The position numbers and the translations under genes were made by a program. A DNA stretch of 64,000 nt from Synechococcus sp. WH 8101 (GTDB lineage Bacteria > Cyanobacteriota > Cyanobacteriia > PCC-6307 > Cyanobiaceae), in the NCBI RefSeq assembly GCF_004209775.1, contig NZ_CP035914.1, positions 1,054,001 to 1,118,000 on the forward strand, given 5' to 3'. A model generated the notes under the pieces. The model saw nothing but the letters and a program-made list of their open reading frames with translations, did not search any database and was not told where the DNA came from. Below, piece after piece: positions 50,933 through 52,690 of this stretch. The first letter of the stretch is position 1; each line of letters starts with the position of its first letter.

Positions 50933-51017
50933 GGAGAGGTGGTCGAGTGGTTGATGGCTCTGGTCTTGAAAACCAGCGAGGTGCAAGCCTCCGTGGGTTC
51001 GAATCCCACCCTCTCCG
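50933..51017 (+). tRNA. tRNA-Ser (anticodon TGA)
   Basis: Cloverleaf of 85 bases: acceptor stem GGAGAGG pairs with CCTCTCC at 51010-51016, discriminator G at 51017, anticodon loop CTTGAAA with TGA, a long variable arm typical of serine tRNAs, and T arm GTGGG-TTCGAAT-CCCAC. The CCA end is not encoded. A run of T follows, probably its terminator. Confidence 0.95.
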
Positions 51018-51326: not shown

Positions 51327-51713
51327 TCAGAGCTGACTCAGGGTTCCAAGCGGCCAGCCCAGGTTGCGGAGGTGGCGCACCAACACCCGTGAGGCCGCGA
51401 AGTAGTCCTGGCTGTAGGACGCCTTGAAGCCGATCTCCCCCAGGGTGAGCAGCAGCAAGCGATGCTCGCGCCGGGTGCCTTCTCGCTCCGCCAGCAAGGC
51501 AAACCCTCGCTGCTCCAGGTCATCGCGGAGTTCCTGATTCAGATCCGCAGTGAAGCCCACGTGAAGCACATGGTCGACCGCGCGATAGGCGGTAAACACC
51601 CTGGCGCCCTGATGCTCTTCGAGAAACTGATAGCGCTCGGTGACGGCGATCACCGCATCCATCACCGGGGCCTGCAGCGCCTGCTCGATCATGGCCAGAT
51701 TGGCCCCACTCAT
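51327..51713 (-). CDS. Partner protein of the ribbon-helix-helix gene, function unknown
   Basis: 128 residues, no signal or membrane segment. Visible elements are TERYQFLEEHQGARVFTAYR, VDHVLHVGFTADLNQELRDD, REGTRREHRLLLLTLGEIGF and RHLRNLGWPLG. The HVGFTADLNQEL segment with a following RREH invites comparison with the GIY-YIG nuclease fold, but I cannot place both GIY and YIG, so this is speculation. Its ATG overlaps the stop of the RHH gene by four bases, making a two-gene operon. Confidence 0.55.
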   Translation of the reverse strand: MSGANLAMIEQALQAPVMDAVIAVTERYQFLEEHQGARVFTAYRAVDHVLHVGFTADLNQELRDDLEQRGFALLAEREGTRREHRLLLLTLGEIGFKASYSQDYFAASRVLVRHLRNLGWPLGTLSQL

Positions 51714-51952
51714 GACGGCATCCCTCCGCCGGCAGCGAGTCGCTCCTCACAGGCCAGCTCATAATTGCGGATGGCGCCGGAGGGGATGGCGCCGCTGCTT
51801 TTGAGCTGACGCACGGACAGTTCCACGCACTGGAGCACCACGCTGGTGAGCTCGCGGCCCTCGCACTGGGCCCAGCTGCGCAGCAGCACGTGCAGGCTCG
51901 GCGGTACAGACACCGTGAGCTTCACCTGGTTTTCGCGGGGAACGGCCTTCAT
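51710..51952 (-). CDS. Ribbon-helix-helix (Arc/MetJ/CopG-like) DNA-binding protein
   Basis: 80 residues. A short beta-strand VKLTVSVP is followed by two helices, SLHVLLRSWAQCEGREL and TSVVLQCVELSVRQLKS, the pattern of dimeric ribbon-helix-helix proteins. It overlaps the partner gene by 4 bases. An array of nine 11-bp units occupies the whole 5' side of the gene (51977-52074), 25 to 122 bases upstream of the start, and is a natural candidate for its operator. It could be an autoregulator, an antitoxin, or a partition-type DNA-binding protein. Confidence 0.7.
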   Translation of the reverse strand: MKAVPRENQVKLTVSVPPSLHVLLRSWAQCEGRELTSVVLQCVELSVRQLKSSGAIPSGAIRNYELACEERLAAGGGMPS

Positions 51953-51976
51953 GCCGGCAGCTGTTGGGCCCTAGTG

Positions 51977-52074
51977 AGTGACCTGAGAGTAACCCTGGAG
52001 TTGCTCTGGGGCAACTTTGAAGTGACTCTGCGGGGTCTTCCAGTTGCTCTTGAGTGGCTGTGTGGATGCTCTTC
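51977..52074 (-). repeat. Array of nine tandem 11-bp units upstream of the RHH gene
   Basis: Plus-strand units with boundaries: 51977-51987 AGTGACCTGAG, 51988-51998 AGTAACCCTGG, 51999-52009 AGTTGCTCTGG, 52010-52020 GGCAACTTTGA, 52021-52031 AGTGACTCTGC, 52032-52041 GGGGTCTTCC (10 bp), 52042-52052 AGTTGCTCTTG, 52053-52063 AGTGGCTGTGT, 52064-52074 GGATGCTCTTC. Read on the minus strand the consensus is near NCAGAGYNACT. It fills the space between the methyltransferase stop and the RHH start almost completely. Spacing of one helical turn fits cooperative binding of RHH dimers along one DNA face. Confidence 0.75.
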
Positions 52075-52690
52075 AGCGTCGGAACAACAGGCAGAGGTTG
52101 TTCGCGGGCATCGCTTGCAGCTGCTCCAGCGTCAGCTCCGAGTCGCTGGCGAGTTGCTCCACAGCTTCCAGGTCGCGTACCCCCCAGCGGGGGTCGCGGT
52201 CCCGCAGGGATTGATCGAACGCGGCGTTGCTGTCACTGGTGTGCTGCCCGCCGCGCCGGAAGGGGCCATAGAGGATCAGGGCACCGCCGGCGCTGAGCCG
52301 ACCAGCCGCCTCCTGGATCAGGGCCTGGCAGCAGCTCCAGGGGGCGATGTGGATCAGATTGATCGCCACGACAGCGTCTAAGTGTTGCTCCAGCTTTTGA
52401 GGAAGCGGCCAGGGGCGGGATTCCACATCGAGTGCCAGCGGTTCGGGCAGGTCTGGCGCGCCTGGTGGATGGCGAATCCAGGCGCTGATGCTGCGGCGGT
52501 GGGCTGGATCCGGATCGCTGGTCTGCCAGTGGATGTCTGGGAGCTGCCGCTGGAACCAGAGGGCGTGTTCGCCGCTGCCGCTGGCCACTTCCAGCACCAC
52601 GGCGCCATAGGGGAGCCAGGTCTTGAGCGTGGCGGCGATCGGCTCCCGGTTGCGTTCGGTGGCCGGAAAGAACAGACGCGCATCCTCCAT
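52073..52690 (-). CDS. DUF938 SAM-dependent methyltransferase
   Basis: 205 residues. LEVASGSGEHALWFQRQLP is motif I, and GGALILYGPFRRGGQHTSDS plus AAFDQSLRDRDPRWGVRDLE and MPANNLCLLFRR are the DUF938 signatures. Substrate is unknown. It lies between the repeat array and arsR, both on the minus strand. It may be co-transcribed with arsR, with 10 bases between the arsR stop and this start. Confidence 0.8.
   Translation of the reverse strand: MEDARLFFPATERNREPIAATLKTWLPYGAVVLEVASGSGEHALWFQRQLPDIHWQTSDPDPAHRRSISAWIRHPPGAPDLPEPLALDVESRPWPLPQKLEQHLDAVVAINLIHIAPWSCCQALIQEAAGRLSAGGALILYGPFRRGGQHTSDSNAAFDQSLRDRDPRWGVRDLEAVEQLASDSELTLEQLQAMPANNLCLLFRR

Follow-up and report, generated by a model that had tools for sequence, protein, structure and literature searches.

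Operator arrays for ribbon-helix-helix (RHH) proteins are already known, for example omega/parS, ParR/parC and MetJ. The RHH repressor MetJ reads tandem palindromic met boxes of 8 bp (AG..CT) with a strand of the type K-x-T, and S-adenosylmethionine serves as co-repressor. For omega (ParB) of pSM19035, 7–10 contiguous boxes occupied by one dimer each are described, and ParA activation requires at least four contiguous boxes (PMC9499535). ParR of plasmid R1 requires at least two 11-bp repeats (PMC9426499). In cyanobacteria, the RHH protein TrcR of Anabaena has been described as an autorepressor with a site over its own -10 element; some picocyanobacteria, Prochlorococcus among them, lack it (PMC10272220). 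Here we describe an array of 11-bp units upstream of an RHH gene in Synechococcus sp. WH 8101, contained in a window, that is the whole stretch of DNA analyzed, of 64,000 nucleotides.

The stop codon of a DUF938 methyltransferase gene (52073-52075, minus strand) and the ATG of the RHH gene (51952, minus strand) are separated by a gap of 120 bp, in which a preliminary description of the sequence had noticed nine 11-bp units with a single 10-bp step. We confirmed this array and place it at 51974-52071 on the minus strand, a phase shift of 3 bp relative to the earlier 51977-52074; its end lies 21 bp from the RHH ATG in the phase used here and 25 bp in the earlier one. It represents a predicted operator for tandem RHH dimers with the consensus RAGYNRCYCNN. 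Read on the minus strand, units 1–5 are GAGCATCCACA, CAGCCACTCAA, GAGCAACTGGA, AAGACCCCGCA and GAGTCACTTCA, followed by units 6–9, AAGTTGCCCCA, GAGCAACTCCA, GGGTTACTCTC and AGGTCACTCAC, with steps of 11, 11, 10, 11, 11, 11, 11 and 11 bp. Unit AAGACCCCGCA has one base in common with the preceding GAGCAACTGGA. When lags 2 to 44 were compared, self-identity of the array amounted to 0.47 (lag 11) and 0.50 (lag 22), the remaining lags ranging between 0.15–0.36 except for lag 43 (0.51), which is due to the 10-bp step. None of 1000 dinucleotide shuffles reached the value observed at this locus. The lag 11+22 score of 0.98 at the array is the highest of the whole window (130-bp windows), and the top score in a 400-kb sample of the same genome (2.63 Mb) was 0.80 among 397,420 windows. 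The array is absent from the output of Tandem Repeats Finder at scores of 30 and above, presumably because the units are too diverged. A search for chains of boxes stepped by exactly 11 bp, which covered about 458 kb (17%) of the genome, revealed no second array; the best four-box chain outside the locus and its DUF938 flank scored 15.9 in comparison to 38.7 in the array. Within the DUF938 coding region four more degenerate 11-bp-phased units are found on the plus strand at 52118-52161, scoring 21.0 versus 15.9 for the top site in the 400-kb sample, and may have arisen by chance in a Leu/Glu-rich stretch.

The preliminary description had made its reading depend on the 11-bp phase being kept in relatives, and this expectation was borne out. 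Two sets of loci sharing some strains were used: a whole-genome set of 30 loci, divided into 16 Synechococcus-type loci (including that of the window) and 14 Prochlorococcus-type loci, and a set of titled records comprising the best 80 of 200 loci from a scan of GTDB contigs, nearly all titled Synechococcus or Prochlorococcus. In the whole-genome set lag 11 ranked among the top four lags upstream of the RHH start at every one of the 30 loci; dinucleotide shuffles reached the observed value in 0–11 of 1000 cases at 29 loci and in 44 of 1000 at the remaining one (L024). Among the titled records 79 of 80 loci could be measured, one (L063) being too short, and the region preceding the RHH gene fell into the top 1% of 11-bp windows in each of the 79. 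It also outscored all remaining windows of its locus in 70 of 79 cases (20/20 Synechococcus-type, 50/59 Prochlorococcus-type). The number of contiguous units chained by script ranged from 5 to 10 in Synechococcus-type and from 3 to 6 in Prochlorococcus-type loci. One genome (G181) encodes an RHH protein identical to that of the window and has 5 contiguous units as compared to 9, suggesting that unit number changes fast while the 11-bp pitch stays constant. Unit number, unit sequence and upstream neighbor all differ across the Synechococcus and Prochlorococcus loci, the 11-bp phase being retained in picocyanobacteria of both marine and freshwater origin.

The RHH gene (51710-51952, minus strand, stop codon counted) encodes 80 amino acids and is followed in the same direction by a partner gene of 128 codons (51327-51713, minus strand), which overlaps its end by 4 bp (ATGA). 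A partner-like reading frame directly follows the RHH gene at all 30 whole-genome loci; in two of them (L002 and L010) the partner is likewise present, beside another, longer frame. Neighbors of the gene pair are the DUF938 gene, a tRNA-Ser gene and an nrdJ-like gene, the latter name being our assumption from its sequence. The tRNA-Ser gene (TGA anticodon) is located at 50933-51017 of the window, between the nrdJ-like gene and the RHH/partner pair. In 17 of 20 genomes nrdJ lies within 30 kb of the locus, so that this linkage is old, and the RHH gene is a syntenic, single-copy chromosomal gene inherited in place. The distance between DUF938 and the RHH gene is at most 1.2 kb in only 4 of the 20 genomes and exceeds 40 kb in the other 16. 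Sixteen of these 20 genomes belong to the 30-locus array set, and the array is present in all 16, including the 12 without DUF938 nearby. We therefore rejected the notion that the array belongs to DUF938.

Homologues of the RHH protein were detected in 46 of 201 genomes of the family and in 13 of 59 genera, one copy each (two of them weak, G030 and G134), and homologues of the partner in 42 of 201, including a weak match (G083) in a genome lacking an RHH match. Four of ten congeneric genomes (G034, G075, G101 and G123) showed neither an RHH nor a partner match; G075 gave a weak RHH match in a profile search. A phylum-wide set of 386 genomes yielded 39 RHH matches, 38 of them in the same family (two weak) and one weak match outside. 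The distant matches G030 and G075 were discarded, having different ORFs downstream; in the 4-kb stretches of G030, G075, G134 and G219 the best 11-bp windows reached 0.74–0.78, which is background level. One of the titled records (L042, Pelagibacteraceae bacterium TMED146) is a contig with the Synechococcus versions of these genes, closely resembling those of G162 (L009), and is probably misbinned. An origin from phages or mobile elements was rejected, since 50,697 phage records contained no match to either protein and IMG/VR none to the RHH protein. Matches of the partner to PHROGs were weak and scattered over 16 families, each found with at most 2 of 29 members.

Assignment of the 80-residue protein to the RHH (MetJ/Arc/CopG) superfamily is based on its predicted strand-helix-helix fold. 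The AlphaFold2 model of a single chain (pLDDT 84) shows an extended segment at residues 8–16, in which no strand is called, and helices at 18–31 and 35–53. Nearly all of the top 50 structural matches are RHH proteins (PutA, CopG, Arc, NikR, AmrZ, omega, MatP and antitoxins), with modest scores: the best Z is 5.1 and the best Foldseek E 0.027, the latter for Arc (1par, probability 0.96), while PutA (2gpe) aligns with Z 4.8 and an rmsd of 1.9 over 46 residues. Pfam contains no model above its cut-off for this protein; RHH_5 matched weakly (best E 0.0036, 3 of 26 members). PDB sequence searches with the RHH protein returned no chain, and a sequence relation to MetJ was accordingly not found. The RHH domain of the Prochlorococcus-type loci L017-L030 is preceded by about 75 additional N-terminal residues (MxRSW..RDEWLxKTS..), which are absent from the Synechococcus-type proteins.

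Alignment of the units gave the consensus RAGYNRCYCNN for the 16 Synechococcus-type loci and TA(G/C)ANTCTATA-like for the 14 Prochlorococcus-type loci; 45 more Prochlorococcus loci with one strand type gave TANAATCTATA. Both groups thereby contain a symmetric consensus box, AGYNRCY in Synechococcus and A(G/C)ANTCT in Prochlorococcus, and in both (16 + 14 loci) the dyad is centered on position 5, as expected for a symmetric dimer. Symmetry of single units amounts to 1.63 of 3 pairs in the Synechococcus group, which is below the 1.84 of column shuffles and suggests that many units carry one better half, and to 1.93 versus 1.90 in the Prochlorococcus group. The predicted reading strand of the protein is KLTVSVP in all 20 Synechococcus-type and K(L/V)Q in all 59 Prochlorococcus-type loci, its Lys being invariant. 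KLTVSVP proteins are paired with AGYNRCY units at 16 of 16 loci, and KLQ/KVQ proteins with A(G/C)ANTCT-like units at 14 loci plus the 45 additional ones. The difference in boxes between the groups hence tracks Thr versus Gln in the predicted DNA-reading strand. This match reflects one evolutionary split; it is consistent with co-evolution but amounts to a single event, and supports, although it does not prove, that the RHH protein reads the boxes. Direct repeats of 11 bp are typical of PhoB-like regulators as well, and a different regulator with head-to-tail sites, such as a PhoB/OmpR-type response regulator, might read the boxes and control the RHH gene. We regard this as quite unlikely: response-regulator half-sites are not known to be symmetric, whereas the consensus is symmetric about position 5 (the single Synechococcus units lean towards asymmetry), box sequence and RHH strand change together, and a second array is absent from the sampled 17% of the genome.

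The array covers or borders the likely promoter of the RHH gene. A putative -10 hexamer, TACTCT, is located at 51986-51991 (minus strand) in the eighth unit, the second from the RHH gene. A TANNNT motif is present 25–40 bp before the RHH start at all 16 Synechococcus-type loci and falls within the chained array at 13 of them. At the Prochlorococcus-type loci it occurs close to where the array ends on the gene side, its position being exactly -26 in 10 of 14 and -17 in 3 of 14, and it reads TATAAT in 6 of 14. The AT-rich DNA of Prochlorococcus contains many TANNNT hexamers, which makes the fixed distance the more telling sign.

We consider it likely that the array is an auto-operator of the RHH and partner genes, bound by tandem RHH dimers as predicted from these features. 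Each 11-bp unit would constitute a degenerate palindrome that one RHH dimer reads through its beta-ribbon. At a spacing of 11 bp successive dimers would be arranged along nearly one face of the helix and could touch, permitting cooperative binding over about 100 bp. Since the -10 element and the region upstream of it are covered or bordered by the boxes, full occupancy would be expected to close the promoter and thus to cause repression rather than activation. Both genes would be expressed from one transcript, and the partner may play a role as co-regulator or effector. Many weak sites in a row would produce a steep, self-limiting response to the level of RHH protein. Several observations count against the auto-operator: up to ten boxes exceed the need of simple repression, the single units of the Synechococcus group are less symmetric than shuffled ones, the match of protein and box reflects a single split, the structural scores of the RHH model are modest, TANNNT hexamers are frequent in Prochlorococcus, and the search for other arrays covered 17% of the genome. 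A multi-dimer filament or a wrapped complex on the array is possible.

The nature of the partner bears on further explanations. Its model (pLDDT 85, residues 1–30 near 60) has a predicted GIY-YIG/T5orf172/MUG113-like fold. VIA-align ranked the GIY-YIG nucleases Slx1 (Z 4.8, rmsd 3.0 over 82 residues) and At-HIGLE (Z 4.2) first, although the unrelated UreE (Z 4.0) is tied by the rule of the tool, and placed I-TevI at Z 2.6. Foldseek on the PDB yielded no match at E ≤ 0.001; among the viral models of BFVD there were 12 such matches, five named T5orf172, GIY-YIG or MUG113, one BRO-G and six without informative name. No match to the GIY-YIG/T5orf172/MUG113 families was found in Pfam, and a PDB sequence search returned four helical chains, the best being a designed coiled coil (E 0.0003, no stretch passing alone). 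In I-TevI the catalytic residues are the Tyr of YIG, an Arg and a Glu. In the partner, Glu83 is conserved in 28 of 29 members, the position of the Tyr is variable among the 29, and helix 60–68 contains no conserved Arg, residue 69 being R/K in 22 of 29. T5orf172 is a GIY-YIG subfamily with glutamate-dependent cutting reported in one case (PMC10448857), and the T5orf172 nuclease Gp88/Odn also is without the usual His/Tyr of helix 1 (PMC8263062).

A GIY-YIG-like protein encoded after an RHH protein could be the toxin of a toxin-antitoxin module, with the RHH protein as antitoxin and the array as an operator subject to conditional cooperativity. Gene order and the 4-bp overlap fit such a module, RHH antitoxins are among the folds closest to the RHH model, and this explanation is compatible with an operator. 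It nevertheless appears unlikely, as the gene pair is single copy and syntenic, PADLOC gave no match, Pfam and NCBIfam no convincing one, and neither protein matched the phage records, nor the RHH protein IMG/VR. Doubtful, too, is a chromosomal nucleoprotein complex on the RHH array, found solely in picocyanobacteria, with the GIY-YIG-fold partner recruited by or onto the coated array; beyond being an operator, the array would then be the assembly platform of a domesticated DNA machine resembling a homing endonuclease or a segrosome.

The preliminary description had left open whether the array is an RHH operator or a partition-like site. In the latter case RHH dimers would coat the DNA into a segrosome anchoring or moving this region of the chromosome, as is the role of ParR/parC or omega/parS on plasmids. 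The geometry would be suitable, with at least four contiguous RHH boxes at a pitch of 11 bp as in the parC repeats of R1; RHH-type plasmid partition systems are marked by contiguous repeats at their promoters, and such repeats are indeed found here. In each of 15 genomes the AT skew switches sign on going from about -350 kb to +340 kb relative to the locus, and in four of five others the switch in GC skew lies within about 200 kb or cannot be placed further by the samples. The GC skew of the 15 is less clear, however, being positive at -350 kb in 14 and negative at +340 kb in 8, and the Prochlorococcus genome G039 has its locus at a distance from the skew switch. Two genes served as controls. 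The unrelated nrdJ stays with the locus, so that proximity to the terminus is read as synteny; a glutamine synthetase gene, with a close homologue in just 3 of 20 genomes, was uninformative. For the same reason a MatP-like terminus-linked site was rejected: the locus is in the terminus half in 19 of 20 genomes (G039 less so), but the nrdJ control travels along. One 20-kb sample (G000:C1:1300001-1320000, L150) had a GC content of 48.8% compared with 56–67% in the other 19 samples and a negative skew, and is possibly a genomic island beside the terminus. There is no NTPase (ParA or ParM) beside the RHH gene at the locus, the adjacent partner being a GIY-YIG-like protein of 128 amino acids, and on this ground we class the array as an RHH operator array and not as a partition system. 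One array alone was seen in 17% of the genome. Taken together, partition is very unlikely. The operator part of the earlier proposal is supported by the conserved phase, the linkage to the RHH gene rather than DUF938, the overlap with the likely promoter, the symmetric consensus boxes and the matching difference in box and reading strand, while the partition part is opposed by the missing adjacent NTPase, the kind of partner, the single-copy syntenic chromosomal gene and an nrdJ equally near the terminus.

Prochlorococcus and Synechococcus have few transcription regulators, and the RHH protein with its array looks like a lineage-specific regulator with a readable code. Box sequence differs between the two groups and the 11-bp pitch is kept, which makes the co-evolution of RHH arrays directly testable. 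RHH and GIY-YIG-like proteins are encoded in adjacent genes conserved in both groups, and neither such a pair nor such an array was described in the literature searched. The locus shares with MetJ an RHH protein, tandem palindromic AG..CT boxes and a K-x-T strand, and differs from it in that the MetJ boxes are of 8 bp and S-adenosylmethionine is the co-repressor. TrcR is a cyanobacterial RHH protein as well; we rejected identity with it, TrcR being a different RHH with the motif ATACTACACTTGTATTAC, for which the description consulted mentions no array (PMC10272220). FciC of the Synechococcus chromatic acclimation island, compared by its description, likewise is a small RHH protein of marine Synechococcus, but has 55–67 amino acids and is encoded by an island gene adjoining fciA/fciB (PMC3877281). 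ParR/parC of R1 resembles the locus in having an RHH protein and 11-bp direct repeats around the promoter, and differs by its ParM motor, which is without counterpart here (PMC9426499). Common to omega/parS of pSM19035 and the locus are an RHH protein and contiguous short boxes over promoters of the own system; omega/parS has boxes of 7 bp on a plasmid, six arrays and ParA as partner (PMC9499535), whereas here the boxes are of 11 bp and chromosomal, with one array seen in 17% of the genome and a GIY-YIG-like partner.
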